Source: a virus. From it: DNA of 23,569 bases. Positions 1 through 16,512 of the stretch are shown piece by piece. Below the pieces are notes generated by a model. That model saw only the letters and a program-made list of their open reading frames with translations, ran no database searches and was not told the DNA's origin. A program made the position numbers and the translations under genes. The stretch is taken from IMG/VR virus record IMGVR_UViG_3300030406_002318, positions 1-23,569 of that record; one strand, given 5' to 3'. How positions within the stretch are numbered: the first letter of the stretch is position 1; each line of letters starts with the position of its first letter.

Positions 1-1
1 T

Positions 2-931
2 TACAGACAGTTTCCAAGAACTGAAGAGCACGCGTTTAGAGACGAGGCTAATAACAGTATATTTAACTTAGTAAAAATATACGAACAGATAGATTATAAC
101 GAAGAACTAGGAAGATCTTTAGGTTTAACTAGAGGTAACTTTCAATGGGTTAACGGTGTTAAGGATTCTCAAGTTATATTTTATCCAGATCCAAAAGGTA
201 GATTTAATATAAGCTGGGTTCCAAAACCTCAACAACAAAACAACGTAATATTAAAAAACGGAATACGATACCCTGGAAATGAACATATTGGTGCTTTTGG
301 TTGTGATAGTTACGATATATCAGGGACAGTTGATGGAAAAGGATCGAAAGGATCTTTACACGGATTAACAAAGTTTTCAATGGAGGAAGCACCTATTAGC
401 CAGTTCTTTTTAGAGTACATAGCTAGACCTCAAACAGCTGATATATTTTTTGAAGATGTATTATGCGCTCTAGTTTTTTACGGAATGCCAATGCTTGCAG
501 AGAACAACAAACCTAGACTTTTATACTATTTAAGACGTAGAGGTTATAGAGGTTTTAGCATGAATAGACCTGACAAGCTTTGGAATAAACTTTCTTCAGC
601 TGAAAAAGAAATAGGTGGTATACCAAACTCAAGTGAAGATATAAAGCAAGCTCACGCTGCTGCTATCGAAATGTATATACAAGATCACGTTGGTATAAAA
701 GAAACTGGTTCTCATGGTAATATGTACTTTAATAGTACTTTAAATGATTGGGCTAGGTTTGATATAAATAAAAGGACAAAGTTTGATGCCACGATTAGTA
801 GTGGTTTAGCAATAATGGCTTGTAATAAAAACTTATACAAACCAAATCCAACAAAAGAAAATAAAGCATTAAATATTAATATTGCTAAGTATAGTAATAG
901 AGGAACGAATTCAAGAATAATTAAACGATAA
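2..931 (+). CDS. Terminase large subunit, C-terminal nuclease part (5' end outside window)
   Basis: The reading frame is open from base 2 to the TAA at 929-931, giving 309 residues without a start, so this is the 3' part of a longer gene. TerL is the packaging motor: an N-terminal ATPase (not in the window) pumps DNA through the portal and a C-terminal RNase H-like nuclease cuts the concatemer. The fragment opens with YRQFPRTEEHAFRDEA, the 'R-x-[FY]-P-x-T-x-E-x-A-F' signature that links the two domains. Candidate nuclease acids are D102 in GAFGCDSYD (305-307), acids within IFFEDVL (about residues 155-161), and D262 in FDATISSGLA (785-787). The ATG at 380 is internal, because the signature and the first nuclease Asp lie upstream of it. 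The portal ATG follows the stop after one base, which fits the usual terL-portal pairing. Family assignment is by recognised motifs and context, not a search. Confidence 0.87.
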   Translation, partial: YRQFPRTEEHAFRDEANNSIFNLVKIYEQIDYNEELGRSLGLTRGNFQWVNGVKDSQVIFYPDPKGRFNISWVPKPQQQNNVILKNGIRYPGNEHIGAFGCDSYDISGTVDGKGSKGSLHGLTKFSMEEAPISQFFLEYIARPQTADIFFEDVLCALVFYGMPMLAENNKPRLLYYLRRRGYRGFSMNRPDKLWNKLSSAEKEIGGIPNSSEDIKQAHAAAIEMYIQDHVGIKETGSHGNMYFNSTLNDWARFDINKRTKFDATISSGLAIMACNKNLYKPNPTKENKALNINIAKYSNRGTNSRIIKR

Positions 932-932
932 T

Positions 933-3338
933 ATGGCAGAGTCTGTACATACAAATTTTCCTTCTCAAGTTGTAAGCGACTTAGAAAAGTCAACCATGGA
1001 ATACGGGTTGAAAGTGGCTAACGCTATAGAGAACGAATGGTTTAAAGGTTCTCACTCTAATAGATACCTGCACAATGAAAATAGATTTCATAATTTAAGG
1101 TTATATGCTAGAGGTGAACAATCAATACAAAAATACAAAGATGAGTTATCTATAAACGGTGACTTAAGCTACTTAAATCTAGACTGGACACCAGTTCCAA
1201 TTATACCTAAGTTTGTTGATATAGTTGTTAATGGTATGGCACAGAGAACATTTGATGTTAAGTGTTTTTCTCAAGATCAATACGGTGTTAGTAAGCGAAC
1301 TGAATACATGGAAACCATAATGGACGACATGAGAGCTAAAGAGTTTAACGAGGCTGCTAAAAACACTATGAATATGGATCTTTACAAAACAGATCCTACA
1401 AAACTACCTGAAACAAAAGAAGAGTTAGAACTACACATGTCTTTAACTTACAAACAAGAGGTTGAATTAGCAAACGAGCAAGCTATAAATCTTTTACTTG
1501 AAGGTAGTAAGTTTGATTTAATACAACAAAGATTATTAAGAGATTTAACAGTTTTAGGTATTGGCGCTGTAAAAACAAACTTTAATTATTCTGAAGGAGC
1601 TACTGTAGAATATGTTGACCCAGCTAACCTTGTTTATTCTCACACCGACTCTCCTTATTTTGATGACTGTTATTATGTTGGTGAAATTAAGTGTATACCT
1701 ATAAATGAACTTGTAAGACAGTTTCCTGAGTTAACTCAAGAAGAGCTAGAGAGAATAAATAAAACAGCTAAAAGAACAAACTCAAGATATACCAACTACG
1801 GTCAAAACGATAAAAACAAAGTACAGGTTTTATACTTTAACTATAAAACATACACTAACGACACTTACAAAGTCAAGACAACTGGATACGGTGGTAAAAA
1901 AGCTATTGAAAAAGAAGATACATTTAAACCTAGCGGAAAAGGTGATTACGAAAGAGTTTCTAGAGCTTACGAGGTTTTATACGAAGGAGCTAAAATATTA
2001 GGAACAGACAGAATTATAAAGTGGTGTAAGTGTGAAAACATGATGAGAACTAAGAGTGATTTTAACAAAGTTAAAATGAATTACTCTATAGTTGCGCCTA
2101 GAATGTATAATGGTAAAATAGAAAGCTTAGTAAGTAGAATTACTGGTTTTGCTGATATGATACAGCTTACTCATTTAAAGCTACAACAAGTGTTATCAAG
2201 AATGGTTCCTGATGGTGTTTATTTTGACGCTGATGGTTTAGCTGAAATAGATTTAGGTAACGGTACAAACTATAACCCGCAAGAAGCGTTAAACATGTTC
2301 TTCCAAACTGGTTCTATATTAGGTAGATCTTTTACTGGTGAAGGAGATGCTAACCCTGGTAAAATACCTATACAAGAAATATCAAATGGTCAAGGCGCTG
2401 GAGGTAAAATGCAAGCTCTTATAAGTAATTATAATTATTACTTACAAATGATTAGAGATGTAACTGGTTTAAATGAAGCTACAGATGCTTCTATGCCAGA
2501 TGAAAGAACTTTAGTTGGTGTACAAAAATTAGCAGCGGCAAATAGTAATACAGCAACAAGACATATATTAAACGCAAGTCTTTTTGTTACAGCTGAAACT
2601 TGCGAGGCTTTGTCTCTTAGAATATCTGATATACTCGAGTATTCACCTACTAGAGATGCGTTTATACAAGCTATAGGTGCTCACAACGTTGCAACATTAA
2701 AAGAACTTCAAGAGTTATATTTATATGACTTTGGTATATTTATAGAGTTAAAACCTGATGCTGAGGAAAAAGCTACTTTGGAAAACAATATACAAATGGC
2801 TATACAGCAAAAAATGATTGATTTAGATGATGCTATTGATTTAAGAGAAGTAAAAAGTATTAAAATGGCTAATCAATTGTTAAAGCTAAAAAGAAAAAAG
2901 AAAGCTGAGCGTGATCAAAAAATGCAACAAGAAAACGCAAAAGCACAAGCAGAAGCTCAATCTCAAGCACAGCAAGCCGCTTCTCAAGCTGAAGTTCAAA
3001 AGCAACAACAGTTAACCTCAACTCAAATGGAGATGGAGAAAACTAAGAACGCTTTAAAAATAGAATACATGAAGCAAGAGGCTATGTTAAAAAGAGAACT
3101 TATGGATCATGAGTTTGAAATAAACATGAAGCTTAGAAAGATGGATGCTGAAAACCAAAGACAAAAAGCTAACGATGCTGAAAATCGTAAAGACCAAAGA
3201 ACTAAGATACAGGCTTCACAACAAAGCCAACTTATAGACCAAAGAAAAAATGAAACTGAGCCTAAAAACTTTGAATCTGCCGGAAACGATAATATGGGAT
3301 CTGGTGGAATAGGTATCGGTGGATTAACTAGTAACTAA
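933..3338 (+). CDS. Portal protein
   Basis: The protein has 801 residues. It forms the dodecameric ring at one capsid vertex through which DNA enters and leaves, and where terminase and then the connector proteins dock. Support comes from its position straight after terminase, its length, and portal-like stretches: VEYVDPANLVYSH (from about residue 225) and the helical stem/clip region around residues 510-545 (DASMPDERTLVGVQ), which resembles portals of marine podoviruses and crAss-like phages. From about residue 650 to 775 the sequence is a long Gln/Ala/Lys/Glu-rich coiled coil, expected to form the barrel or crown projecting into the capsid. The end is glycine-rich (GSGGIGIGG). Residues 780-786 (FESAGND) recur almost exactly near the N-terminus of the next protein. 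There is no Shine-Dalgarno; the start is TAATATG-like, one base after the terL stop. Isoleucine is mostly ATA (14 of the first 19 by hand count). Confidence 0.83.
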   Translation: MAESVHTNFPSQVVSDLEKSTMEYGLKVANAIENEWFKGSHSNRYLHNENRFHNLRLYARGEQSIQKYKDELSINGDLSYLNLDWTPVPIIPKFVDIVVNGMAQRTFDVKCFSQDQYGVSKRTEYMETIMDDMRAKEFNEAAKNTMNMDLYKTDPTKLPETKEELELHMSLTYKQEVELANEQAINLLLEGSKFDLIQQRLLRDLTVLGIGAVKTNFNYSEGATVEYVDPANLVYSHTDSPYFDDCYYVGEIKCIPINELVRQFPELTQEELERINKTAKRTNSRYTNYGQNDKNKVQVLYFNYKTYTNDTYKVKTTGYGGKKAIEKEDTFKPSGKGDYERVSRAYEVLYEGAKILGTDRIIKWCKCENMMRTKSDFNKVKMNYSIVAPRMYNGKIESLVSRITGFADMIQLTHLKLQQVLSRMVPDGVYFDADGLAEIDLGNGTNYNPQEALNMFFQTGSILGRSFTGEGDANPGKIPIQEISNGQGAGGKMQALISNYNYYLQMIRDVTGLNEATDASMPDERTLVGVQKLAAANSNTATRHILNASLFVTAETCEALSLRISDILEYSPTRDAFIQAIGAHNVATLKELQELYLYDFGIFIELKPDAEEKATLENNIQMAIQQKMIDLDDAIDLREVKSIKMANQLLKLKRKKKAERDQKMQQENAKAQAEAQSQAQQAASQAEVQKQQQLTSTQMEMEKTKNALKIEYMKQEAMLKRELMDHEFEINMKLRKMDAENQRQKANDAENRKDQRTKIQASQQSQLIDQRKNETEPKNFESAGNDNMGSGGIGIGGLTSN

Positions 3339-3355
3339 TTATTATATTTTATATT

Positions 3356-4564
3356 ATGGAAGAGAACAAAGAAAACGTAGTTGAAGAAACTACACAAGAA
3401 CAAAAGACTGAGGAAACACCTCAAGTCGATGAAAGTAAATTTGAATCTGCTGGAGATGATACTGTTATAAAAGTAGATTTAAGTAAACCACCAAAATCAA
3501 AACAAGATGCCGTTCCAGAGCAAAGCACAAATGAGGTTCCTGTACGCGACGGATCCGAAGCTAGCGAAGAAGTTCAAAAGCAAGACGTCGAAGAAACAAA
3601 TGAAGAACCTACCGGAGAAGAAGTCTCCGTTCAAGATGAAGCCGAAACCGTACTAGAAGAAGTAACTGAAGAAGAAGTACAAGAACTACAAGAACAAGTT
3701 GAAGAAGCTGTAGCAGAAGCTGAAGCAACAGGTAAAGACTTGCCTGAAGAGATACAAAAACTTGTAGACTTTATGGAAGATACCGGTGGAGATTTAAACG
3801 ATTACGTAAAGCTAAACACAGATTACACCGATAAAAAGGATGCTGATGTTTTACAAGAATATTATAGACAAACTAAACCTCATCTAGATAACGAAGAGAT
3901 AGACTTTTTGTTAGAAGATCAGTTTTCATACGACGCTGACGTTGATGAGGATAGAGATATAAAAAGAAAGAAATTGGCTTTGAAGGAGCAAGTTGCTCAA
4001 GCAAGGCAACACTTAGAAGATAGAAAATCTAAGTATTATGAAGAGATTAAAGCTGGAAGTAAACTGACAACAGAACAACAGAAAGCTATAGACTTTTTCA
4101 ACCGCTATGAGAAAGAGTCCAAAGAGTCTCAACGAATAGCACAACAACAAACTGATACTTTTTTAAATAAAACTAATCAAGTTTTTAATGACAAGTTCAA
4201 AGGTTTTGAATACAACGTCGGAGACAAAAAGTTTAGGTTTAACGTTAAAAACGTGAATGAAGTTAAAAACACTCAAAGCGACATTAATAATTTTGTCAAA
4301 AAGTTTTTGAACAAACATAATCAAATGGAAAACGCTACGGGTTATCATAAATCTTTATTTACAGCAATGAATCCTGATGTTATTGCAAATCATTTTTATG
4401 AGCAAGGTAAAGCCGATGCTATTAAAGAAGCCGCTGCCAAAGCTAAAAACGTGAATATAAATCCACGTAAAGCAGCTGGTGAAATTAATATGGGTGGAGT
4501 TAAGTTCAGAGTGTTAGGTGATAATTCAGATTCGTTGAAATTTAAAATTAAAAACAAAAATTAA
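3356..4564 (+). CDS. Probable capsid scaffolding protein
   Basis: The protein has 402 residues and lies between portal and major capsid protein, the classical scaffold slot. Residues 1 to about 130 are very acidic and look disordered (runs of E, Q, V, T; TEEEVQELQEQVEEAVAEAE suggests coiled coil). A better-ordered middle follows from about residue 140 (LNDYVKLNTDY, EIDFLLEDQFSYD), then helices rich in K/E/Q (KKLALKEQVAQARQHLEDRK). The C-terminus is basic (SLKFKIKNKN), like scaffolds whose basic tail contacts the capsid protein. The middle and C-terminal parts resemble a family found in uncultured marine phages in this same position. I see no protease catalytic motif, so a fused maturation protease is not supported. 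Residues 29-35 (FESAGDD) repeat the portal C-terminal motif. It starts 17 bases after the portal stop in an AT-only leader without Shine-Dalgarno. An alternative is a minor inner-capsid protein. Confidence 0.65.
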   Translation: MEENKENVVEETTQEQKTEETPQVDESKFESAGDDTVIKVDLSKPPKSKQDAVPEQSTNEVPVRDGSEASEEVQKQDVEETNEEPTGEEVSVQDEAETVLEEVTEEEVQELQEQVEEAVAEAEATGKDLPEEIQKLVDFMEDTGGDLNDYVKLNTDYTDKKDADVLQEYYRQTKPHLDNEEIDFLLEDQFSYDADVDEDRDIKRKKLALKEQVAQARQHLEDRKSKYYEEIKAGSKLTTEQQKAIDFFNRYEKESKESQRIAQQQTDTFLNKTNQVFNDKFKGFEYNVGDKKFRFNVKNVNEVKNTQSDINNFVKKFLNKHNQMENATGYHKSLFTAMNPDVIANHFYEQGKADAIKEAAAKAKNVNINPRKAAGEINMGGVKFRVLGDNSDSLKFKIKNKN

Positions 4565-4586
4565 CTAACCTTAAAATTTTTACATT

Positions 4587-6050
4587 ATGATTACAGGCGT
4601 TCCGGCTGCTGGTTATACACCAGCGCCAATTAAACACGCGTTGACTCAAAACTACATTGATTTTGCTACTTTAGGTGCAAGCGATGGTTGGGCTCAACAA
4701 TATTTACCAGACCTAATGGAAAAAGAAGCTGAAGTGTTCGGTAACAGAACTATTGCAGGTTTTCTTTCTCAAGTAGGCGCTGAAGAATCTATGACTTCTG
4801 ACCAAGTTGTTTGGTCTGAGCAAGGTAGATTACACCTATCTTATACTGCTACGAGAGCTAATGATGTTATTACTATCGCTAACGATGTTGATGGTAATCC
4901 TATCGGTGTTAATCACGGTATTCGTCCAGGTGATATGTTATTAATATCTGATGCTAACGCTACTGTTAGGGCTTACTGTATCAACGTTGACCCTACTGCT
5001 GCTGCTTACGCTCAGATCACTGTTAAACCTTACGCTACTATGGCTGGTGGTGCTGCTGCAAACATGAATGCTACTGCTATTGGTAACAACGACCTTACTG
5101 TACTAGTATTCGGTTCTGAATATGTTAAAGGTGCAACTGGTAGAGGTTTATCTAACGAGCCACAGTTCAAATCTAGAAAAAACAAGCCTATCATTATCAA
5201 AGATCAGTACCACGTTTCTGGTTCTGATGCTTCTGCTATTGGTTGGGTTGAAGTTTCTGGTGAAGATGGTCAATCAGGTTACTTATGGTACTTGAAAGCT
5301 GCTGGTGACACTAGACAGAGATTTACTGACTACTTAGAGATGACAATGTTAGAAGCTCAAGATGCTGCTCAGGTTATTACTGCTAATCCTTCTGTTTCTG
5401 GTGTTGCTCAAGCTGGTGCTGCTGGTACAATTACTGGTAGTGAAGGTTTATTCTCTGCGTTAACTACAAGAGGTAATCAAACTTCTGGTATTACAGGTGT
5501 TCCTTTAGCTGATTTAGCTGAGTTTGACTTAATGTTAGCTGAGCTTGATAAAAACGGTGCTATTGAGGAAAACATGTTGTTTGTTGATAGAACTACTGCT
5601 TTAGCTATTGATGATATGTTAGCTGCTATGAACTCTTACGGAGCTGGTGGTACATCTTACGGTGTATTTAACAACTCTGAGGATATGGCACTTAACTTAG
5701 GATTCTCTGGCTTCCGAAGAGGTTCTTACGACTTCTATAAGTCTGACTTCAAATACCTTAATGATAAAGGTACAAGAGGTGGTCTTAATGATGCTGTTAA
5801 CAACATCAGAGGGGTAATGATTCCTGCGGGTGTATCATCTGTGTATGATGAGCAATTAGGTAAAAACCTTAAGCGTCCATTCTTACACGTAAGATATAGA
5901 GCTTCTCAAACAGATAACAGACGATTCAAAACTTGGACTACTGGTTCAGTTGGAGCGACTACTTCTGATTTAGACGCGATGGAGATGCACTTCCTATCTG
6001 AAAGATGTTTAGTTGTACAAGGAGCTAACAACTTCTTCTTGTTAAACTAA
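4587..6050 (+). CDS. Major capsid protein (HK97-like fold)
   Basis: The protein has 487 residues. It is the shell subunit, predicted to adopt the HK97 fold. The N-terminal region carries the family signature of crAss-like and related marine podovirus capsid proteins: QNYIDF near residue 21, then WAQQYLPDLMEKEAEVFGNR and TSDQVVWSEQGRLHLSY. A small beta/Ala-Thr-rich insertion lies around residues 105-165. Its place after portal and scaffold agrees. Codon use differs from neighbours: Ile is ATT or ATC in 22 of 23 cases by hand count, while flanking genes favour ATA, and Ala is mostly GCT. This looks like translational selection for a very abundant protein. The leader (4565-4586) is A/T-rich without Shine-Dalgarno. 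Ten bases after the stop a strong intrinsic terminator begins, so MCP probably ends a major transcript. No decoration domain or crosslinking residue can be assigned by eye. Confidence 0.88.
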   Translation: MITGVPAAGYTPAPIKHALTQNYIDFATLGASDGWAQQYLPDLMEKEAEVFGNRTIAGFLSQVGAEESMTSDQVVWSEQGRLHLSYTATRANDVITIANDVDGNPIGVNHGIRPGDMLLISDANATVRAYCINVDPTAAAYAQITVKPYATMAGGAAANMNATAIGNNDLTVLVFGSEYVKGATGRGLSNEPQFKSRKNKPIIIKDQYHVSGSDASAIGWVEVSGEDGQSGYLWYLKAAGDTRQRFTDYLEMTMLEAQDAAQVITANPSVSGVAQAGAAGTITGSEGLFSALTTRGNQTSGITGVPLADLAEFDLMLAELDKNGAIEENMLFVDRTTALAIDDMLAAMNSYGAGGTSYGVFNNSEDMALNLGFSGFRRGSYDFYKSDFKYLNDKGTRGGLNDAVNNIRGVMIPAGVSSVYDEQLGKNLKRPFLHVRYRASQTDNRRFKTWTTGSVGATTSDLDAMEMHFLSERCLVVQGANNFFLLN

Positions 6051-6059
6051 CAGGTTTTT

Positions 6060-6092
6060 AAAAGAGTCGGGGCTTCGGCCTCGACCCTTTTT
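6060..6092 (+). terminator. Rho-independent terminator with UUCG tetraloop, downstream of major capsid gene
   Basis: An 8-bp stem is formed by GTCGGGGC (6066-6073) and GCCTCGAC (6078-6085), with one G-U pair, closed by loop TTCG (6074-6077) in a C(UUCG)G context, an exceptionally stable tetraloop. After one A/C mismatch the stem can extend by G6064-C6087 and A6060-A6063 against T6088-T6091. The descending arm runs straight into CCCTTTTTATTT, a U tract. It lies in a 70-base gap and is one of only two GC-rich patches in an AT-rich sequence. The remaining bases to the next ATG (6093-6120) are almost pure A/T; I cannot point to a convincing promoter there. Confidence 0.88.
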
Positions 6093-6120
6093 ATTTATTA
6101 ATTTTTTATTATATTATATC

Positions 6121-6957
6121 ATGGCAAAAAAAGCAAAAAAAGAAGAGGTAGAGGTACCTGTTGTTGAAACACCAGTTGTTGAAACACCAACACCAAAAGT
6201 AGTGGTTAAAGAAAAACCACAAAAAAAGAAAGATGATTGGGTTATTAAAGATCGTGTATACGAATTAATAGGTGCTCAACCATTAATGAGAGCTGTAAAA
6301 TCACATAGCATATATTATTTTGACGAAGAAAAAGGTTACGAAAGAGAATTAAAATATACGTCAAACCAAAGAAGTTGCTTTGTTGATGAGTTTCCAAAAG
6401 ACGCAAGACACGTATTAGAACATATTGTTTTTAGAAACGGTGTACTAGCCGTACCTAAAGAAAAAACTGTTTTGCAAAAACTATTATCATTATATCACCC
6501 TCACAGAAATAGACTGTGGGTTGAAGTAGATAACGAAGCAAAAGCTGAAGAAGAAACATTAGATATAGATTTACAACTTGATGCTATGAATTTAGCTAGA
6601 GAAATAGATATTGATGCAGCTGAAGCTATTATGAGATCAGAGAAAGGTTCTGAGGTATCTACGATGAGTTCTAAGGAACTTAAACGTGATTTATTACTAT
6701 TTGCTAGAAATAAGCCTAGACTGTTTCTAGAGTTAGCTTCTGATGATAATGTTTATCTTAGAAATTTAGGTATAAAAGCTGTTGAGGCTAATATCATAAG
6801 AATGACTCCGGATCAAAGATCATTTGTTTGGTGTAGCAACGATAGAAAACTTATGAATGTACCTTACGATGAACACCCATACTCAGCTTTAGCCGCTTGG
6901 TTTAAAACTGACGAAGGTATGGAGGTTTTCAACAATATTGAAAAAAGATTAAACTAA
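6121..6957 (+). CDS. Conserved head-module protein of unknown function (marine phage family)
   Basis: The protein has 278 residues. Residues 1-40 are a charged, low-complexity leader (Lys runs, two VVETP repeats, a second Lys cluster), probably disordered. The folded part begins near residue 40 (DWVIKDRVYEL). Recognisable stretches are YYFDEEKGYERELKY, an acidic linker (residues about 140-160), helical segments NLAREIDIDAAEAIMRSE and SSKELKRDLLLFARNKPRLF, and the C-terminal PYSALAAWFKTDEGMEVF. I recognise these from a family that sits directly after the capsid gene in uncultured marine phages, but I know of no established function. A capsid-vertex, minor head or internal role is possible from position only. 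The gene is isolated by hairpins on both sides (terminator 6060-6092, hairpin 6965-7001), so its expression may be set separately from the flanking genes. The start is followed by two runs of seven A. There is no Shine-Dalgarno. Confidence 0.7.
   Translation: MAKKAKKEEVEVPVVETPVVETPTPKVVVKEKPQKKKDDWVIKDRVYELIGAQPLMRAVKSHSIYYFDEEKGYERELKYTSNQRSCFVDEFPKDARHVLEHIVFRNGVLAVPKEKTVLQKLLSLYHPHRNRLWVEVDNEAKAEEETLDIDLQLDAMNLAREIDIDAAEAIMRSEKGSEVSTMSSKELKRDLLLFARNKPRLFLELASDDNVYLRNLGIKAVEANIIRMTPDQRSFVWCSNDRKLMNVPYDEHPYSALAAWFKTDEGMEVFNNIEKRLN
6160..6189 (+). repeat. 15-base tandem repeat (x2) encoding VVETP-VVETP
   Basis: The unit GTTGTTGAAACACCA occurs twice back to back (6160-6174 and 6175-6189), followed by a partial ACACCA (6190-6195). 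It is in frame and encodes two VVETP units plus TP in the disordered leader of the head-module protein. The copies are identical in nucleotide sequence, so the duplication looks recent. Copy number could vary between related genomes without breaking the frame. Confidence 0.85.
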
Positions 6958-6964
6958 TCTAACT

Positions 6965-7001
6965 GTAGTGGTAGTCGCCCTACGGGGCGATTACAAACTA
7001 C
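6965..7001 (+). promoter_or_regulatory. Long RNA hairpin with UACG tetraloop, no U tract; upstream of gene 7017-7721
   Basis: The arms are GTAGT (6965-6969) with ACTAC (6997-7001), a 1x2 internal loop, GTAG (6971-6974) with TTAC (6991-6994), and TCGCCC (6975-6980) with GGGCGA (6985-6990). The loop is TACG (6981-6984) in a C(UACG)G context, another UNCG tetraloop. That is about 15 pairs. Downstream is A-rich (AAATAAAAAATAATT), so it lacks the U tract of a standard terminator. It ends 15 bases before the next ATG, leaving an unstructured A-rich ribosome landing site. Possible roles are an RNA processing site, a stabilising 5' stem, or a weak or factor-assisted terminator. Confidence 0.75.
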
Positions 7002-7016
7002 AAATAAAAAATAATT

Positions 7017-7721
7017 ATGGCAATAAGCGTAGATACAGTATATCAAAGAGTGTTGGCGTTAGCTAACAAAGAACAAAGAGGATATATAACACCTCAAGAG
7101 TTTAACTTACTAGCAAATCAAGCTGAACTCGAAATATTTGAAATGTATTTTTACGACTTGAATATTAGAGAAAGAGTAGATGTTGAAAGAGACCAACACA
7201 CTACACTATCTGATATTACTACACTAATAGGTAGAAAGTTAGATCCATTTGTTACAATAGCAACGGTCACTTCTGGCCACACGTTTCCTGCTGCATACAT
7301 GATAGGTAAAATATTCCACAACAACCGTTTATGCAAGCAAGTTCCTAGAAACGAAATATTCAACTTATTACAATCACCCAGACATGCAACCATGCTTAGT
7401 AGGTCACCAGTATATTGTGAAAGCGATACAACTGGTCAAGATATAGAAGTGTATGGTGGTGCTACACAAGCCGCTGGTAACACAGTTACTTGTGAGGTTA
7501 TAACTGCACCTACAGGAAATGTAGCTTGGGGATATGTGGTTGTAAACGAAAAAGCTTTATACAACGCGAACTCAGCTGTGAATTTTAACTTACATGATTC
7601 TGAAGAAACAAACTTAGTAAACAAAATAGCAGAGTTAGCTGGTATAGTAATAAACAAAGCTGGTCTAGCTAGTACGTTTGCTGGTAGAGATGCTAATGAA
7701 ACACAAATCAAAAAACAATAA
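7017..7721 (+). CDS. Head-tail connector / ring-type structural protein
   Basis: The protein has 234 residues. The N-terminus (AISVDTVYQRVLALANKEQR, then GYITPQEFNLLANQAELEIF) is a hallmark of a small structural family found between the capsid gene and the nozzle gene in uncultured marine podoviruses and, in diverged form, crAss-like phages. The N-terminal 60 residues are helical; the rest is mixed alpha/beta with a Thr/Val/Ala-rich stretch (about residues 150-185) that looks like beta structure. By analogy with crAss-like virions it may form one of the rings stacked under the portal, but which ring cannot be told from sequence alone. It lies 15 bases after the hairpin 6965-7001 and stops 3 bases before the next gene (TAA-ACT-ATG), so it is surely co-transcribed with that gene. 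There is no Shine-Dalgarno. The exact role is inferred; membership in the virion module is well supported. Confidence 0.68.
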   Translation: MAISVDTVYQRVLALANKEQRGYITPQEFNLLANQAELEIFEMYFYDLNIRERVDVERDQHTTLSDITTLIGRKLDPFVTIATVTSGHTFPAAYMIGKIFHNNRLCKQVPRNEIFNLLQSPRHATMLSRSPVYCESDTTGQDIEVYGGATQAAGNTVTCEVITAPTGNVAWGYVVVNEKALYNANSAVNFNLHDSEETNLVNKIAELAGIVINKAGLASTFAGRDANETQIKKQ

Positions 7722-7724
7722 ACT

Positions 7725-8624
7725 ATGGGTTTAAACTTTCCAAATAATAACGACAGTTCGTATTATGTAGCTAATGGTAATCATGGTGAATATCAATATA
7801 TAAGTTTAGAGGATATTGTTGAAACATTCATGGCTACTTATGTTGGTGAAAACAAAGTGTGTAAAAATGTTCTTGCTGCAGATGTTTACTTTCATGCTAC
7901 GAGAGCTTTTCAAGAATTAAGCTATGACACACTTAGAAGAGTTTTATCACAAGAATTAGTAATACCTAACTCTTTACACATGTTACTACCTAGAGACTTT
8001 GTAAACTATATAAAGTTTAGTTGGTCTGATTCTAGTGGTATAGAACATGTCATATATCCAGCTAGTAAAACTTCAAATCCAACAGACATAGGTTATGACG
8101 CATCTACAGATACATATAGTTTTACAGCTAATGTTTTAGATAGCGACGAAACATCTGATACAATGACTAATTTTAAATCAGCTACACCAGTTGAGAACCA
8201 AGATAGCTACGATGATGAAGATTATGATTATTTAGTAGGGCAAAGATATGGGCTTGATCCTCAATACTCTCAAATAAATGGATCGTTTTTTATTGACTAT
8301 AAAACAGGAAAAGTTCATTTTAGCTCTAACTTAGCGGGAAAAACTGTGATAATAAAATACATAAGTGATGGTTTAATAGAGTCAGAAAGTGATGCTGATA
8401 TAAAAAAGGGAGACTCTGTTATACATAAGTTTGCTGAAGAAGCTTGTTATAAACATATATTATATGGATGTTTATCTGCTTTAGCAAACCCTCCAGCACA
8501 ATTAGCAATGATTAAAAAAGAAAAATTTGCAGAAACAAGAAATGCAAAAATAAGATTATCCAATATAAAAGTTGAAGAGATTACTCAAATATTAAGAGGT
8601 AAATCTAAATGGATTAAACACTAG
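7725..8624 (+). CDS. Head-tail adaptor / tail-tubular-like connector protein
   Basis: The protein has 299 residues. The N-terminal half contains EYQYISLEDIVETFMATYVG and ADVYFHATRAFQELSYDTL, then PRDFVNYIKFSWSDSSG. This set is typical of a family that precedes the nozzle gene in marine podoviruses and matches the helical head-to-tail adaptor pattern (T7 gp11 / P22 gp4 type role). A beta-rich insert with many Asp/Ser lies in the middle (about residues 120-200). A helical C-terminus (FAEEACYKHILYGCLSAL; ends GKSKWIKH) follows. The likely job is to bind the portal and present a platform for the nozzle. It is the only gene here that ends in TAG (8622-8624); the TAG is in frame with the next gene, whose ATG comes six bases later, with no other stop between. 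Function is inferred from family and place. Confidence 0.7.
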   Translation: MGLNFPNNNDSSYYVANGNHGEYQYISLEDIVETFMATYVGENKVCKNVLAADVYFHATRAFQELSYDTLRRVLSQELVIPNSLHMLLPRDFVNYIKFSWSDSSGIEHVIYPASKTSNPTDIGYDASTDTYSFTANVLDSDETSDTMTNFKSATPVENQDSYDDEDYDYLVGQRYGLDPQYSQINGSFFIDYKTGKVHFSSNLAGKTVIIKYISDGLIESESDADIKKGDSVIHKFAEEACYKHILYGCLSALANPPAQLAMIKKEKFAETRNAKIRLSNIKVEEITQILRGKSKWIKH

Positions 8625-8630
8625 AATAAT

Positions 8631-11600
8631 ATGGCAGAAATGAAGAGAACGTTCTCTGAGTCCAAGATGAACAAAGATCTTGATGAAAGACTTGTTCCTA
8701 ATGGTCAATACAGAGATGCAAAGAACATACAAATATCTACATCTGATGGTTCTAATATAGGTGCTGCTCAGGTTGTTTTAGGTAATGCTAAAAAAGCTGT
8801 TGGCTCTGTTGATGAGCTGTACACTACAACAGTGGGTGTTTTAGATGTTCCTGAAAAAGATTTAATATATTACTTTGTTGCTGCTTATGGTTGGGAAAGA
8901 TATAATTATGCTCCTAATATATACAAAGATTTAATTATAGAGTATGACACTGTAAACGATTCTTTTAAATATGTTTTTGTAGATATATTTAAAGTAAGAG
9001 CAACACAAGAGGGAGCACCATCTGCACCGGGTAGATTAAATGTTAGTAGTAACGGTGATAACACTATGAATATTACTGGTGCTAGAATCGGTATGCAAGT
9101 TGTTGGTACTTTTACAAATACAACTGGTGGTACTATAACTTGGCGTGGTAACAACGTTGCTAATGGTGCTACTTACACTTGTATAACTAATGATGAGGTA
9201 TTTATAACAGATATTCAAATTGATGCCGCTAACAACAGATGGCATTTAATATTAACCACTAATAAATACGGTGAAAACTTACGTTGCACAGCTAATGATA
9301 CATACGATTTAAGAGCTGATAGGGTATTAAACTTTAGTCACAACAATAAAATACCTGCTATAAATCATTTAGATGGTATGATATTTTGGACTGATGACTC
9401 AACTGAGCCTAAAAAAATAAACATAGAAAGATCTATAGCTGGTACTGGAGGTATACACTATATGCCTAATGGTGGTATAAATGGTTTTGCTGCTGGTGTT
9501 CCTAGTGATAATCCAGCTGTTAACATACAGAATAACAACGCTCACTTTCACACTAGGCTAGTTATAGATAAAGACTTTCAGCTTAGACTAGCGGTTAACC
9601 ATACGGAACAATTACCTATACCATGTAGAGAACAACACATAACGGTTATAAAGAAAAACCCTGAAATGCCGCTTGACCTTGAAATGTCAACTACAGCCGC
9701 TACTAGAGTACCATCCGGTTCTACAACTCCAAACAGTATATTTACTCAATTTAACGACTCTAACGCTACTAGTGTTTTTTACGACACAGCTAATAACCAA
9801 CCTCATGAAGTTGGCCACCAATTAACAGTAACTTTTAACACAGCGGTAGATTTTAGACCTGGTGATGTATTGCTTTTCTTAAACGATTTAAATGCTAGTC
9901 CAGATGCTTTTCCAACTGAAGATGCTTTAGTTAGAGCTGTTGTTATAAATGGTCCTGGTGGTTATCCAAACAATGGTGGTTCAGTAGGTCCTTACACTAT
10001 AGAAATACAGTCTGTTGATGCTACACTTGGTAATATACCTGAAGACTGGTTAGTTAGATTAGAACAAGAAAAACCTTTATTTGAGTATAAGTTTCCTAGA
10101 TTTTCCTACAGATGGAAATACACTGATGGTGAATACTCTTGTTATGCTCCTTGGTCTGAAATAGCTTTTTTACCTGGTGATTTTGATTATTTACCTAAAA
10201 AAGGTTATAATTTAGGTATGCGTAATAATGTTAGATCGCTAAAATTAACAAGATATTTTCAAGAACCTTCTAATACACCTGAAGATGTTATTGGTGTTGA
10301 ACTACTTTATAAAGAAACAAACAAGGCTGAGGTTTATACTATAAAAGAATTAACAATGAAAGATGGTCCTCCTTTTTGGCCAGCTTGGAATATTAACTTT
10401 TACAATAGAGGTGAATATGAAATAACATCAGAAATTATACACGCTATAGTCCCTTCTAACCAATTGTTAAGACCTTATGATAATGTACCTAGAAGAGCTA
10501 GAGCTCAAGAAATAACTGGTAATAGATTAGTTTATGGTAACTATTTACAGAACTATAATATATCAGCTGGTTCTGTTTCTAGAAGTTTAGAAATAGATGT
10601 AAACTACGCTAGCGAGTTAATAGATAACTCTATAAACCCTGATGGTATAGAGACACCTACTTTGTCTTGTAAAACTATGAGAACCTACCAGGTTGGTGTA
10701 GTTTTTCGTGATAAGTATGGTAGAGAAACACCTGTGCAAGTTCCTAAAAGCGGTGGTTCTGTAACAATACCTAAAAAAGCTTCTACTACAGCTAATCAAA
10801 TAACAGCAACATTAAGATCAGATCCTCCTTTCTGGGCTGAGTCTTTTAAATATTACATTAAAGAAACATCTAACGAATACTATAACTTAGCTATGGATCG
10901 TTTTTACGATGCTGAAGATGGTAACGTTTGGATTAGTTTTCCTTCTGCAGAAAGAAATAAAATAACTGAAGACACATACTTAATACTTAAAAAACAGCAC
11001 GACAGTGATATTGCTGTAATAGATCAAGCTAGATATAAAGTTATATCTATAGCTGAAGAACCACCAACTTTTATAAAACAATATAGAAAGTCTTATGGTA
11101 TGGCTCATGTGGATTATGCAGCCGCGGGAGCACCAGAGCCAGACAAATCTTTTATACTTGTAAGAAAAGATGATTTCTTAGCTACGTTTAGTTCTGTTGT
11201 AGAACCTGATTTAAAAGAAGATTTAGAACTAAGAATAGGTGGTACATCTGGTGGTACACCTCTATTAAGTAATTTTTATGATGTTGTTTCTATAGCAGTA
11301 CCATCAAGTGGTACTTGGGTTAAAATAACTATAGCTGGTAAGTTTGAAAACGACTGTAATCAGTTTGTTGGTTTGAACTTAGACAACGACCTAAAGTTAG
11401 AAATTTTACAAAATACACTTAAACATAAACCGGAGTTTGATGGTAGATTTTTTGTAAAGATATACAAAGACTTAATATTACAAAACAAACTTTTAAATAA
11501 CTTTACAACAGATTTAGAGTACGCTGTTGTAGATACTATGAGGGTTGGATTTTTAAATGATCACAACGGTAGTGGTGAAAGCTTTTGGAGTGACTGGAAA

Positions 11601-14600
11601 CACACCAACTATAAAGATCAGTATGACAGAGGTAATCAGTGGTTTTATGATGATGAAGATTATCAAGACGATAGTTATTACCCTACTCCTGGTTTTTGCA
11701 AGGGAGGTTGTTTTGATCACGCGGGTAACGCTCACTTTGATATATCTTTTGCAAACTTTCATCAAGATTCTAATCCTGTTGGTTATGCAGGAAATATATT
11801 CCAAGTTCCGTATACTAGATTAACAAACATAGGAGGTTTAATTAGATTTGCTGAAGATCCAGCCCAAACTATATGGGAAATAGTACAAGTAAGAGGTAGA
11901 TTATATACAAACCTTGGTGCTGGTATGAATTACTTTGGAGGTGAAAGTGGTAGTGCTAGTAGTCCACTTGTTGGTGGTACTGGCGATAGTGACTGGAACT
12001 GGAGTAATAGTGATTCTAACTCTGGTAATCAAAGATTTGGTATTAGGGTTAAATTAAGAGGTTACAGAGATCTTGATAACGTAGATGTTACTGGGCTAGG
12101 TACACATGATGAGTGGTTTAGTCCTAACAGAGTAGACGCTAATGGTGACTCACACTATTTTTGTCCTATTGCTAGTGGTTTAGTTGGTGGTAACTCTTAT
12201 TGGATGCAACCAGATGGTACGTTAGCAGTTAGAACCGCACAATCCGCTACATGTTCTCATAGTAGTGGTATATTCAATGGAATGACACATCCTACTATAG
12301 ATGGTTTTTCAGCAAACCCAAGAAACGATAGTACTATAGAGTTTATGGAGCCTTTTATAGTTACGGATAGTGAAGGTGCTCAAGAATTTTCAAGTAACAA
12401 TCCAGCTATATGGGAAACAGAACCTAAAGAAAATGTTGAACTAGATATTTATTACGAGGCTTCCGCTGCAATACCCGTTAAGTTTTCAAAAGAAACAAAC
12501 GAAATGATAGTGCCATACAAAGCTACTTTTGAGCATGGAGGCACAACACACACCGTAACAAGTTTATCTGATAACAACATAACTTTTACACCAGCTTTAA
12601 CAGCTGTTATACCTGAGTTTGATCCAGCTTTACCAAGTATAACTGGAAATGAAAGCTCTATAACTATATATAGATACGATGGTTCTAAAATAACTTCTAA
12701 AGTAAATGTAAGTGGTAACGTTCCTGTTGGTGCTACTACAATACAGTTATTTATGGGTGATAACCCTCGTAAACATGATTTTTCAATTGTTACTAAAAAT
12801 GCAACACATCACCAAACATATTACTTAGGCTGGTGGAACTGTTGGGCTTGGGGTAACGGTGTTGAGTCAGATAGAATTAGAGATGATTTTAATGCACCAC
12901 AACTAGATAACGGTGTGAAAGCTTCAGCTTCTGTAGCAGAGCCTTATAAAGAAGAACATAGAAAAAATGGTTTTATATGGTCTGGTATATTCAACTCTAT
13001 AAGTGGCGTTAACAACTTAAATCAATTTATAGCAGCAGAACCTATAACCAAAGATTTAAATCCTGGTTATGGTAGCATTCAAAAAATGCATGCTAGAAAC
13101 ACTGATACAGTAGCCTTTTGTGAAGATAAAGTTTTAATCATATTAACAAACAAAGACGCATTATTTAACGCTGATGGTAACTCTAACGTTACTGCGACTG
13201 CTAGAGTTTTAGGAGCTGCAACACCTATACAAGGTGAGTATGGTATATCCACTGATCCAATGAGTTTTGCTAAAACACCTTTTGGTGCTTACTGGTGTGA
13301 TCAAATGAGAGGGCAGGTTTTAGGTTTACAAGGACAATCAAGCATAAGCGTTATATCTGATGTTGGAATGAAAGATTACTTTAATGACAATCTTCAAGGT
13401 GTTACAGATATACTTGGTACTTACGATGGTAAGAAAAATGAATATAACTTAACGTTTGGAACAAGAGCTTACAGAAGTCAGATGAGGCCAAGTGGAACTA
13501 CTGTTTCTTGGAACGAAGATATTAAAGGCTGGGTAAGTTTTAAATCTTTTGATCCTGAAAACGGTATTAGCTTAAACAACGAGTATTACACGTTTAAGTT
13601 TGGTCAAATATGGAAGCATCACCAAACAATTAACCATTTGGGTAATCCAAATCCTAATAATATGTTTTATGGTATACAGTATTATCCTAGTATTAAATTG
13701 TTGTTTAATGACGATCCTGGTTCTGTTAAAAGCTTTGGAACCGTTAACTACGAGGGTACTCAGTCTAGAATAACCGCTTTTGTAAATCCTTCAGTAACAG
13801 ATGCTGCTGGTAATACATTTAATATAGGTGATAGAGAGTATTATAATCTAACACAAAAACAAGGTTGGTATATAGATAGTAGTACCACAAACCTACAGTC
13901 AACTGAAAACATAGAGTTTAAAGAAAAAGAAGGTAAATGGTTTAGTACTTTTACAGGCGCTACTACTTTACTTTCAAATTTAGACGAAAAAGAATTTAGT
14001 GTTCAAGGTATTGGTATGGCTACTCAAGAAACAGTTGTAGATTCTGGAACTAATAGAAGTCAACGAAAATTTACGTTTAACGTTACAAACAACACAGCTA
14101 CTGGTGGTGGTACTTACGATGCTACAGCTGATAGTGGTTGGACTACTGAAAATGTTTCTAATCAATCAAGCCACACAGATGGAACAACCGTTGGTACTAA
14201 CAACACAAGTTTTAAAGAGCTTACAATAACAAATATTGTAAATGATGAGTACACTGGTATAAATTTAGACGCCTTTGATTTTACTATTGGAGGAGATGTT
14301 ACAATAACAGATACAACCTTTAGAACAATAGAAAAACAAGGTGGAGGAAGCTGGAACGCTACAGCTGGTGTAAACAAGATAGAGTTGTTTAACAATGGTG
14401 TTGCTGGTGAACCAACTAATACTATTAAAGTTAAGGTTTACTATGATAACTTTACAATAACACAAGATACTGTTTACACTGTAGATTTAGACAAGCAGAC
14501 AGTTAGTTTAAACACACTACTAAAAACACCGTTTGAAGCTTTAGTTCAGCATGATGGCACGGTAGGTAATTTTAATTTAACTATAGCTAATGTTAATGAT

Positions 14601-16133
14601 ATTAATAGAACAACTGATAGTAAAAGACCACTAAAAGGTCACGATGCGTATGTTCATACTGGTAATTTAAATAAAGGTCAAACTACGCTTTGGGGTAAAT
14701 ACACGTTTACAGCTTCTAATGGTTATTATTTTAAACCTTTAGATCCAAGAAACCCAAATCCTGTAGACGTAGATTACACCTCTACAAATAGAGAGCTTGG
14801 AAAACAGTTTGATGTAAAAATAACACCTACATTAAATTCTGCTAATCAATGCACCGTTGCTGTTGTAGAGTTTTTCTTTACACCGCTGGCTGGTGAAGAC
14901 GATCAACTACCTACTACTGGAAGTTTTGCAGATTTTGATAATCAATTTACAATTAGACTTGCTACAGAGCAAATAACACAAAGTGGTTATTCTGATAATG
15001 TTGTTGCAGCTATTAAAAATGTTTCTTATAGAAAAGATATATTAACCTCTGTTATAGCTCAACAGCAACTTATAACAATACAAGCTTCGGCTCCTGGTAG
15101 AACATCTTTCCAATTGGGTAGAAAGAGTGGTAGTGGTACGGTTGACTTATATTATAATTTTGCAACAGATGCTTGGCAAGCCGGTGCTTCTACTAACACT
15201 GTTGACTTTACAAAAGATGAGTTGATAAAACAGTTTTCTGTTTTTCATTCTACTTTAAATGAAGATAAAACATATTCTGTAAAACTAATAGAAACAACAG
15301 GTGGCGGCCTTACACACTTAGATGTTCCAACTAGTACAGCTGGAGTTCCAGACGCGTTTGAAGAATTAACATATAAAACAGCAACAAACGTTACTGGATC
15401 TGTAAACGCTGTTAACACTAGTGGTGGTACCGCTATAACTGGCTTATCAGTTACTAATAATACTGCTACGACAAAAGCTAGAGTACCTCAGTTTAGAAAA
15501 CCTAAAGCACTTCAGCTTAGTAAAGATAGAACTTACAACACAATAAATTTTGTGTATACAATCACCGGTGAAGGAAAAGCAATATCAATATCTTCAGGTA
15601 ACGGTAGACAACCTGTTGTTGATGATAGCGGCTCAGGTAGCAGCCATCAAATACGTGATGTTAGAGGAGCTGGACATACAGTTTGCTTACCAGCAAATAG
15701 CTTGGCTCCAGCTGGTGGAAGATATATATATTTAGACGAGTATAATGGTGATGGATTAAAAGTAGGTATGGGAGTGTCAGATGTAGGTTATGAAAGAGGT
15801 CAAAAAAGTTATAGTGGTACGATTTTAACTGCTAGTAGAATAGCAAGTGGTGCGAATGTAACAGCTATTGATAGCGCTGGGTATAATATTGGTGGTACTA
15901 ATTATAAATACAGAATAACAATATCTGCTGATATAGTAGATACGGGTGCAGCGTTTGCTCAATATGATAAAATTGAATTTACTAGTGACTGGAGTTATGC
16001 TTTAAGAGCTACAGCTGTTCAAGATAGTGCAACACAAGTAACAGTTACTGTTAGTTATATAGCAAAAGACTATGGTGATGCCACACCTAACGGAGCTATT
16101 ACTTTGTATCCTAAATTTTTAAATGTAACATAA
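8631..16133 (+). CDS. Giant tail nozzle ('muzzle') protein with long C-terminal extension
   Basis: The protein has 2500 residues. Family hallmarks of the tail nozzle/stabilisation protein are visible: residues 8-48 (KMNKDLDERLVPNGQYRDA, then NIQIST and VVLGN); NGVESDRIRDDFNAP at about 1409; NLNQF and NPGYGSIQK near 1460-1485; WCDQMRGQVLGLQG near 1555; KKNEYNLTFG and GWVSFKSF at about 1610-1638; then LNNEYYTFKFGQIWKH. This pattern fits a beta-propeller-based tube (crAss muzzle, T7 gp12 / P22 gp10 type role) that closes the short tail. Residues about 1000-1040 hold an acidic stretch and a Cys/His cluster (C1023, C1027, H1030, H1035). From about 1665 to the end lies a Thr/Asn/Gly-rich, beta-looking extension with repeated Ig-like-sounding segments (for example NNGVAGEPTNTIKVKVYYDN) and few Cys; I cannot assign it. 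It may be surface-exposed and contact the host. An alternative start is M4 (8640), since relatives often begin near there. Confidence 0.8.
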   Translation: MAEMKRTFSESKMNKDLDERLVPNGQYRDAKNIQISTSDGSNIGAAQVVLGNAKKAVGSVDELYTTTVGVLDVPEKDLIYYFVAAYGWERYNYAPNIYKDLIIEYDTVNDSFKYVFVDIFKVRATQEGAPSAPGRLNVSSNGDNTMNITGARIGMQVVGTFTNTTGGTITWRGNNVANGATYTCITNDEVFITDIQIDAANNRWHLILTTNKYGENLRCTANDTYDLRADRVLNFSHNNKIPAINHLDGMIFWTDDSTEPKKINIERSIAGTGGIHYMPNGGINGFAAGVPSDNPAVNIQNNNAHFHTRLVIDKDFQLRLAVNHTEQLPIPCREQHITVIKKNPEMPLDLEMSTTAATRVPSGSTTPNSIFTQFNDSNATSVFYDTANNQPHEVGHQLTVTFNTAVDFRPGDVLLFLNDLNASPDAFPTEDALVRAVVINGPGGYPNNGGSVGPYTIEIQSVDATLGNIPEDWLVRLEQEKPLFEYKFPRFSYRWKYTDGEYSCYAPWSEIAFLPGDFDYLPKKGYNLGMRNNVRSLKLTRYFQEPSNTPEDVIGVELLYKETNKAEVYTIKELTMKDGPPFWPAWNINFYNRGEYEITSEIIHAIVPSNQLLRPYDNVPRRARAQEITGNRLVYGNYLQNYNISAGSVSRSLEIDVNYASELIDNSINPDGIETPTLSCKTMRTYQVGVVFRDKYGRETPVQVPKSGGSVTIPKKASTTANQITATLRSDPPFWAESFKYYIKETSNEYYNLAMDRFYDAEDGNVWISFPSAERNKITEDTYLILKKQHDSDIAVIDQARYKVISIAEEPPTFIKQYRKSYGMAHVDYAAAGAPEPDKSFILVRKDDFLATFSSVVEPDLKEDLELRIGGTSGGTPLLSNFYDVVSIAVPSSGTWVKITIAGKFENDCNQFVGLNLDNDLKLEILQNTLKHKPEFDGRFFVKIYKDLILQNKLLNNFTTDLEYAVVDTMRVGFLNDHNGSGESFWSDWKHTNYKDQYDRGNQWFYDDEDYQDDSYYPTPGFCKGGCFDHAGNAHFDISFANFHQDSNPVGYAGNIFQVPYTRLTNIGGLIRFAEDPAQTIWEIVQVRGRLYTNLGAGMNYFGGESGSASSPLVGGTGDSDWNWSNSDSNSGNQRFGIRVKLRGYRDLDNVDVTGLGTHDEWFSPNRVDANGDSHYFCPIASGLVGGNSYWMQPDGTLAVRTAQSATCSHSSGIFNGMTHPTIDGFSANPRNDSTIEFMEPFIVTDSEGAQEFSSNNPAIWETEPKENVELDIYYEASAAIPVKFSKETNEMIVPYKATFEHGGTTHTVTSLSDNNITFTPALTAVIPEFDPALPSITGNESSITIYRYDGSKITSKVNVSGNVPVGATTIQLFMGDNPRKHDFSIVTKNATHHQTYYLGWWNCWAWGNGVESDRIRDDFNAPQLDNGVKASASVAEPYKEEHRKNGFIWSGIFNSISGVNNLNQFIAAEPITKDLNPGYGSIQKMHARNTDTVAFCEDKVLIILTNKDALFNADGNSNVTATARVLGAATPIQGEYGISTDPMSFAKTPFGAYWCDQMRGQVLGLQGQSSISVISDVGMKDYFNDNLQGVTDILGTYDGKKNEYNLTFGTRAYRSQMRPSGTTVSWNEDIKGWVSFKSFDPENGISLNNEYYTFKFGQIWKHHQTINHLGNPNPNNMFYGIQYYPSIKLLFNDDPGSVKSFGTVNYEGTQSRITAFVNPSVTDAAGNTFNIGDREYYNLTQKQGWYIDSSTTNLQSTENIEFKEKEGKWFSTFTGATTLLSNLDEKEFSVQGIGMATQETVVDSGTNRSQRKFTFNVTNNTATGGGTYDATADSGWTTENVSNQSSHTDGTTVGTNNTSFKELTITNIVNDEYTGINLDAFDFTIGGDVTITDTTFRTIEKQGGGSWNATAGVNKIELFNNGVAGEPTNTIKVKVYYDNFTITQDTVYTVDLDKQTVSLNTLLKTPFEALVQHDGTVGNFNLTIANVNDINRTTDSKRPLKGHDAYVHTGNLNKGQTTLWGKYTFTASNGYYFKPLDPRNPNPVDVDYTSTNRELGKQFDVKITPTLNSANQCTVAVVEFFFTPLAGEDDQLPTTGSFADFDNQFTIRLATEQITQSGYSDNVVAAIKNVSYRKDILTSVIAQQQLITIQASAPGRTSFQLGRKSGSGTVDLYYNFATDAWQAGASTNTVDFTKDELIKQFSVFHSTLNEDKTYSVKLIETTGGGLTHLDVPTSTAGVPDAFEELTYKTATNVTGSVNAVNTSGGTAITGLSVTNNTATTKARVPQFRKPKALQLSKDRTYNTINFVYTITGEGKAISISSGNGRQPVVDDSGSGSSHQIRDVRGAGHTVCLPANSLAPAGGRYIYLDEYNGDGLKVGMGVSDVGYERGQKSYSGTILTASRIASGANVTAIDSAGYNIGGTNYKYRITISADIVDTGAAFAQYDKIEFTSDWSYALRATAVQDSATQVTVTVSYIAKDYGDATPNGAITLYPKFLNVT

Positions 16134-16143
16134 ACAATAAAAC

Positions 16144-16512
16144 ATGCCAACAACTTTAACATTTTCTAAACCATTAAACGTTTCTTGTCAAATAGGAGAT
16201 ACGGCTTATTATGTTCTTACTACAGCTTCTGGAAACTTTACAGTTAATTTAGCTAATGTAATTGAGATAGGACCTATTTCAGCCATAAACAATCCACAAA
16301 GTAACGCTCCTACCATTGTTTGTAGCCCAAGCTTGTTGCCAGTCGGATTTAATCCTCCTCCTGCATTTATTCTTTTTAGCAAAGACAATAAAGCTAACTT
16401 AAGTAGTATATTAGGTTATTATTTAGAGATGGAGTTTAAAAGTAATAAAGCTGGATCTGATCACGAAGAAATATTTTCCGTAGGAACTGATTATTTTATA
16501 AGTAGTAAATAA
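16144..16512 (+). CDS. Small structural protein of unknown function
   Basis: The protein has 122 residues. It begins 10 bases after the nozzle gene in an A-rich leader and ends in TAA. The sequence alternates short polar and hydrophobic stretches (NVSCQIGDTAYYVLTTASGN, VNLANVIEIGPI), which suggests a small beta-sheet domain. A proline-rich loop lies near residues 70-80 (NPPPAFILF) and a charged tail ends in DYFISSK. The IGDTAYY motif resembles small proteins that follow the nozzle gene in related marine phages. The slot suggests a tail accessory or nozzle-associated part; no enzyme motif is visible. There is no signal peptide or membrane helix. Confidence 0.6.
   Translation: MPTTLTFSKPLNVSCQIGDTAYYVLTTASGNFTVNLANVIEIGPISAINNPQSNAPTIVCSPSLLPVGFNPPPAFILFSKDNKANLSSILGYYLEMEFKSNKAGSDHEEIFSVGTDYFISSK

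Follow-up and report, generated by a model that had tools for sequence, protein, structure and literature searches.

The window analysed here, a stretch of 23,569 nucleotides, is part of the 28.8-kb incomplete virus record IMGVR_UViG_3300030406_002318 and carries the end of a terminase gene together with portal, capsid and tail genes on the plus strand. Its nearest annotated relatives are the Elemovirus phages of Flavobacterium, the Cellulophaga phages phi38:1 and Calle_1 (Callevirus, Pervagoviridae), Maribacter phage Panino and the metagenomic genome MW202828, with capsid identities to the window of 35-48%. All of these share the same order of terminase, portal, one further gene and capsid, with a terminator behind the capsid gene. 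The features around the capsid gene that are relevant to its transcription are as follows.

3336 to 3355, plus strand: A/T-only element P1, directly 5' of the ATG of the 402-aa gene; reads TATATTTTATATT followed by ATG, a diverged copy of the box at P2
3356 to 4564, plus strand: 402-aa gene, first in the probable capsid unit; without PHROG or Pfam match
4587 to 6050, plus strand: major capsid protein gene; phrog_13704, virion structural protein; the Calle_1 homologue is annotated as major capsid protein
6060 to 6092, plus strand: hairpin, almost certainly an intrinsic terminator; A tract, 8-bp stem (6066-6073 with 6078-6085), UUCG loop, U5
6098 to 6104, plus strand: TTAATTT; forms the 5' portion of the A/T element conserved at P2
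6110 to 6120, plus strand: P2 box TATATTATATC; almost unchanged across the clade, abutting the ATG at 6121; candidate -10 element
6121 to 6957, plus strand: 278-aa gene, first behind the terminator; phrog_34748, unknown function
6965 to 7001, plus strand: second conserved hairpin, TCGCCC-UACG-GGGCGA inside GUAGU/ACUAC; without T tract

Further along, positions 8631-16133 hold a 2500-aa gene, far longer than the phi38:1 gene at the corresponding place (3975 bp), and a very large ORF (more than 1519 aa within the window) occupies 19012-23569 and continues beyond, with a metallopeptidase-like HEFLH motif recognised by eye. The presumed counterpart of this ORF in a relative of 57.7 kb, G001, is 3448 aa long and has no PHROG match.

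A preliminary description of this DNA had placed a hairpin ten bases after the capsid stop, and this is where it lies: the stop is at 6050 and the extended stem begins at the tenth base behind it, with the G+C-rich part of the stem beginning at the sixteenth. The main stem closes the UUCG loop (6074-6077) with eight pairs, six of them G-C, one A-U and one G-U, and is extended across an A/C mismatch by the pairing of AAAAG with CUUUU (6060-6064 with 6087-6091). Folding of the 81-base stretch 6040-6120 gave -19.1 kcal/mol (z -3.24), and none of 200 shuffled versions was equally stable. The U tract of the earlier description is present, but consists of only five bases (6088-6092) set two C's away from the 8-bp stem, and most of this run is paired in the extended fold. 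Similarly, an A/T-only stretch does follow, although its limits are not 6093-6120 as first described; the G/C-free run, which is the longest in the window, covers the 32 nt from 6088 to 6119, and base 6120 is a C. A search of the window against Rfam gave no match, and a terminator consensus scan of positions 1-20000 returned nine terminator-like sites where 7.7 were expected, which is not significant alone; the site behind the capsid gene has the most G-C pairs among the nine (six vs three). We nevertheless accept this site as a terminator, since it is conservation that decides.

For this comparison, gaps were collected with capsid queries from the window, MW202828, Panino, Elemovirus and the sigma-bearing contigs described below, the capsid scans contributing at most their best 80 loci, or 50 in one case, so that locus counts are to be read as samples. 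From 312 capsid-match loci we dropped 5 that were truncated or incomplete, 29 in which the start of a following gene was missing and 1 whose gap was shorter than 35 bases; the remaining 277 include the window and its own record (L001) and amount to 222 distinct gaps. A hairpin with a T tract stands behind the capsid gene in 215 of these 222, compared with about 8 after shuffling. In the window's clade this is 80/80, and in other clades 135/142, against means of 5/80 and 3.2/142 for dinucleotide-shuffled gaps and 0/80 and 0.4/142 for same-length windows of capsid-coding sequence. The gaps before the 402-aa gene carry the terminator signal in 0/164. Six of the seven distinct gaps that fail (L170, L225 and L351 to L354) keep a G+C-rich hairpin with a long loop or few T's, and the seventh, L197, is long and without a clear hairpin.

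The pairing itself is also under constraint. In an ungapped alignment of 34 hairpins of the clade with four-base loops, 10 of 12 pairs have changed on both sides, so the compensatory changes that the preliminary description had proposed looking for in relatives are indeed found. Paired cells make up 92.4% of this alignment vs 76.3% after shuffling, double-change cells number 55 vs 11.3, and shifting the partner by one column leaves pairing at 57-61%. On the other hand, the exceptional stability and the UUCG loop, which had been singled out as the notable feature, are not conserved. We scored 83 hairpins from 86 loci plus the window (L031 and L068 end inside the gap, and the finder missed L028 and L039, whose hairpins are seen by folding), and the loop is C(UUCG)G in 55 of them; the other 28 have different loops, such as UUAAUU, CUAGU, UACG or GAAA. 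Relatives at 25-48% capsid identity keep the position of the terminator with different stems and loops, which indicates that UUCG is not essential. What is conserved is position and pairing, not letters.

Structure, covariation and the 215/222 gaps agree, and the hairpin is almost certainly a factor-independent (intrinsic) transcription terminator, as first described. Stable hairpins at 3' ends protect mRNA, and one could suppose that this one is mainly a stabiliser of the mRNA 3' end or a processing site, the more so as the hairpin nearby at 6965-7001 lacks a T tract. Given how consistently a T tract accompanies the hairpin behind the capsid gene, we consider this very improbable as the main function, and the stabilising and terminating roles are in any case compatible.

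The other end of the presumed transcript was approached through the main -7 box of Bacteroidetes, TAHHTTTG (PMC6847099). In other clades this host box lies before the homologue of the 402-aa gene in 108 of 133 distinct gaps, vs 1 of 83 in the window's clade, and in 72/73 gaps of the largest sister clade its end lies 15-30 bases upstream of that homologue's ATG. With a host box in front and a terminator behind, the series of promoter, 402-aa homologue, capsid gene and terminator in these other clades looks like a unit. The earlier proposal that capsid mRNA is made as a distinct unit is therefore probable, and we have good confidence that the terminator closes a separate two-gene capsid unit, made up of the 402-aa gene and the capsid gene. 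The product of the former may be scaffold-like, judged by its position only. Among the named relatives, elemoF, phi38:1, Panino and MW202828 have TANNTTTG before the capsid unit; TANNTTTG is also found behind the capsid terminator in elemoF and MW202828, but not in phi38:1 or Panino. In the window there is no TANNTTTG in 3336-3355 or 6088-6120, and TAHHTTTG is necessarily absent from 6088-6119 because that stretch has no G.

In place of the host box, the window's clade has a conserved A/T-only element at both P1 and P2. At P2, the gap ends in TATATTATAT(T/C) directly before the ATG in 78 of the 80 distinct gaps of the clade and in 0/142 elsewhere. Across the 80, positions -11, -9 to -6 and -4 to -2 are invariant (100%) and positions -10 and -5 are at 97-98%; TATATT lies 5 bases ahead of the ATG, and a part containing TTAA some 20-25 bases upstream. 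At P1, 50 of 83 gaps of the clade have the exact box (0/133 elsewhere) and 82 of 83 are A/T over the last 12 bases, with relatives mostly reading TTATTAAYTATTATTATATTATATT directly before the ATG. An A/T-only ending of 12 bases occurs in other clades too (48/142 P2 gaps and 26/133 P1 gaps). Conservation over the last 20 bases amounts to 34.0 bits at P2 and 28.8 at P1, compared with 21.8 in the capsid gene's own leader.

How particular the element is to these two places was considered by a matrix scan of nine genomes of 58-71 kb from the sigma-bearing part of the clade. These genomes are A/T-rich, and each gave 8-18 hits, most of them away from an ATG and some outscoring P2. In each genome only 1-3 of them lie directly against an ATG; those listed are P1 and P2, with G022 showing P2 only (its P1 has diverged) and G032 having a third; in two sister genomes, no matrix hit abuts an ATG. 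There are a few further places that match the box with one mismatch, for example in G040, G027, G024 and G021. A reversed-pattern control also matches, in 7/12 records and 22/29 contigs, but this control is weak because TATATTATAT reads the same backwards.

Since the box directly abuts the ATG, it might be a translation signal instead, that is, an unstructured leader for two genes that is conserved because host ribosomes read it. Translation in F. johnsoniae is favoured by A at -3, -6, -12 and -13 (PMC6847099), and in keeping with such a signal P1 and P2 both retain A at -3, and P1 retains A at -13 in 91%. However, the capsid gene, presumably the most heavily translated of all, has no box, and its leader has A at -14 to -11 and at -3 in both clades examined, the sister clade included. 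P1 and P2 mostly have T at -6, -7, -9 and -11, with T in 98-100% at -6, where A is favoured, and a box joined to an ATG is found at only 1-3 places per genome. These points make a purely translational role improbable.

A further possibility is that the terminator works without any promoter behind it, as in phage T7: a single upstream promoter, a leaky terminator and read-through, with the A/T element an inactive leader. In T7, the terminator T-phi aborts most but not all transcripts, and read-through of it is the sole route to expression of genes 11 and 12 (PMC5592923). Consistent with this, 116 of the 142 P2 gaps of other clades lack TAHHTTTG although the terminator is mostly present there; the host box is found in the remaining 26, in 13 of the 115 gaps of the largest sister clade and in 1 of the 80 gaps of the window's clade. 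The largest sister clade thus seems to live on read-through behind its terminator, and it follows that P2 need not be a promoter. What such an arrangement leaves unexplained is the near-invariant box at P2, its copy at P1 and the loss of the host box at P1, and we consider it unlikely for the window's clade.

We favour the interpretation that the P1 and P2 boxes are phage-specific promoters placed at the ATG, which the sequence comparisons make rather likely. For P2, a promoter is probable on the grounds of conservation and of the replacement of the host box. The mRNA from P1 and P2 would then perhaps be leaderless or nearly so. The preliminary description had suggested a promoter in the A/T stretch, and there is a conserved element at this place, but it contains neither a standard Bacteroidetes box nor a site of the sigma-70 promoter scan. 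That scan (58 sites vs 72 expected) was set aside as uninformative for this phylum. Among the matches listed for open-licence PMC text, none describes such a promoter scheme.

Apparent changes to promoters in this clade extend beyond P1 and P2. At the junction before the gene at 7017, TANNTTTG is present in 179/179 loci of other clades and in 0/61 here, counted per locus rather than as distinct gaps, and with 54 of 133 gaps of one sister clade longer than 250 bases, where TANNTTTG is likelier by chance. In other clades, 177 of the 179 loci have a hairpin with a T tract at this junction; the 61 gaps of the window's clade all have a hairpin, 14 of them with a T tract. The loop of the hairpin at 6965-7001 is of the UNCG type. 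Over whole genomes, TANNTTTG is rare in the upstream gaps of the nine sigma-clade genomes (11/264) compared with two sister genomes (18/68), and another motif, GATAATAT, is enriched (44 upstream gaps vs 2.4 expected). Before early genes, TACGA often lies exactly 9 bases before it (TACGA-N9-GATAATAT). In its strict form this early motif has 46 sites in 7 of the 9 genomes and 0 in both the reversed sequence and the two sister genomes; of 9 further sigma-clade records, 6 have it, and it is absent from the window's record, 14 sister contigs, 7 named genomes and the only cellular assembly found with a relative, a metagenome-assembled genome (MAG) discussed below. In the early region of G001 (L091-L093), G013, G022, G029, G040, G028 and G037, a longer and rigidly spaced form, TTACAAA..AAATACGA-N9-GATAATAT, can be seen, which we regard as a candidate early promoter of the sigma-bearing clade.

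The clade also encodes a candidate for the factor that would read such promoters. G001 encodes a 253-aa protein with a match to Pfam Sigma70_r4 above the cut-off (25.3 bits), to region 2 just under it (22.5 bits alone, and 26.2 with its neighbours in the genome search), and to phrog_351, RNA polymerase sigma factor (66.7 bits). The profile of this family aligns with FliA along positions 30-242 of 253 and, within region 2, with SigA/RpoD. A predicted model has a pLDDT of 77 and a pTM of 0.46, and the Foldseek matches shown are sigma factors or sigma complexes (best E 1e-6, TM about 0.3); given the poor placement of domains in the model, it is the sequence profiles that identify the protein as a sigma factor. 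With a profile for sigma region 2, it was found in 8 of the 9 sigma-clade records, with 4 scoring over the curated cut-off, and in 0/36 others, these being 7 named genomes and 29 sister contigs of 43-100 kb, some of which may be fragments. In the ninth record, G036, the profile missed the sigma and tblastn found it.

The co-occurrence of sigma and box needs careful interpretation given the incompleteness of many records. A tblastn search found the sigma in 1 of 17 records, G001, and in neither the 11 other box-bearing records nor five named relatives, such that 1 of 12 box-bearing records has it. Of these, G002 ends 174 bases into a gene near the sigma's place, G003-G006 are without the whole neighbourhood, and no sigma was seen in G007-G011 (30-36 kb) or in the window's own 28.8-kb record, which is too short to show it. 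Across the viral collection, the sigma occurs in at least 31 loci on at least 30 contigs, a lower bound because the scan uses exact peptide patterns. Besides G001, there are 29 such contigs, of which 24 have the capsid gene, and in 23 of these 24 the box is present within one mismatch, bearing in mind that the contigs were picked for the sigma; in the exception, G037, which has both genes, no box is seen at that threshold. The five sigma contigs without the capsid gene (4.5-29 kb) have no box. In the Elemovirus phages, phi38:1, Calle_1, Panino and MW202828, neither A/T box nor sigma was found (elemoF is deposited as partial). It may be that box and sigma trace to one origin, in which case their association may be a single event. 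In addition, the presence of a separate early-gene motif in the clade means that the sigma might serve that motif instead. That the clade's sigma factor reads the P1 and P2 boxes is thus a suggestion from the sequences which we hold at slightly less than an even chance. In G024 (L163, L165), the capsid match consists of two pieces that overlap, and one of them contains an in-frame TAG, possibly through a frameshift or an assembly error.

It could also be the case that the host's own polymerase reads these promoters, if the main sigma of the host has another consensus, in which case the early motif and the A/T box would both be promoters of the host's kind. The genome-wide scarcity of TANNTTTG is in line with this, as is the fact that early genes, whose expression precedes that of a phage sigma, have a motif of their own. 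Against this, the only cellular assembly found with a relative is a Sphingobacteriales MAG, in which the relative is on a phage-size contig. We rate host reading as rather unlikely. The absence of the early motif from this MAG says little, because its phage contig also lacks the strict motif, and a count of the host-promoter pattern in the assembly was uninformative (111 vs 105 in the control). The contig in question (L426, JAAXIF010000025.1) is 63 kb long, with a capsid gene at 62%, a sigma at 56% and a variant box, and is either a possible hint at the host or a misbinned phage; neither it nor the pattern count points firmly to a host for the clade.

Taking the clade's own sigma as the reader, the following scheme may be proposed. 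RNA polymerase starting from P1, before 3356, would mostly stop at 6088-6092, so that capsid message would exceed that of the genes that follow. Transcription of 6121 and beyond would come from read-through and probably, in this clade, from P2 as well, where the P1 element recurs immediately after the terminator. Both elements would have the A/T-only, -10-like box TATATT, with a start so near the ATG that the mRNA may be leaderless or nearly leaderless, and would be read by the host RNA polymerase carrying the clade-encoded sigma. As a whole, this account of a capsid-unit terminator, read-through with P2, and phage promoters read by the clade's sigma seems to us likely. More tentatively, and with somewhat more doubt than belief, we suggest that this clade of uncultured phages, related to flavobacterial podoviruses, left the Bacteroidetes promoter code for an A/T promoter that its own sigma reads, placed right at the start codon and used at about two sites in each genome, with leaderless messages for the capsid unit and the genes downstream, and a second, early promoter.

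Parts of this scheme have parallels elsewhere. T-phi, too, is a single terminator immediately after the major capsid gene, with late genes continuing on the same strand, but it is read by the single-subunit RNA polymerase of T7; in the present clade, a candidate promoter lies right behind the terminator. A search for a single-subunit RNA polymerase (PF00940) matched 0/12 records, but no positive control matched and most records are fragments, and we do not use this as evidence of absence. When the giant proteins of G001 were scanned with PHROG for a virion RNA polymerase, the 3448-aa protein had no match and the only matches of a 2387-aa protein were to one virion structural protein and to two families without assigned function; G001 may still package a virion polymerase. 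The late promoters of T4 are many, whereas this clade has about two boxes per genome, directly at the ATG. The T4 late promoter TATAAATA, served by the sigma gp55, is likewise a short A/T-only box of the -10 type paired with a phage sigma (PMC1524935); the clade's sigma resembles SigA/FliA in regions 2 and 4, and the likeness to T4 concerns the pairing of a box with a sigma, the latter seen in relatives. The box TATATT also resembles the -10 box of the leaderless genes of Deinococcus-Thermus, which is TANNNT a few bases before the ORF and depends weakly on other promoter parts (PMC12340547), but those are host genes of another phylum, and here a leaderless start is only inferred. In Flavobacterium psychrophilum, leaderless mRNAs are a minority, 5.5% of those mapped (PMC9723704).

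The capsid terminator is, then, a known kind of device, and what is new is the adjoining promoter-like element together with the sigma. A large group of podovirus relatives, from a lineage other than that of T7, has kept a terminator at the place known from T7, behind the capsid gene, and what is retained is its position rather than its sequence. If the boxes are promoters, then this clade has replaced the unusual promoter code of the Bacteroidetes with one of its own, for which a candidate sigma factor is in hand. Should this be true, it would represent a directly testable change in phage promoter specificity, and may offer possible orthogonal expression parts for Bacteroidetes.
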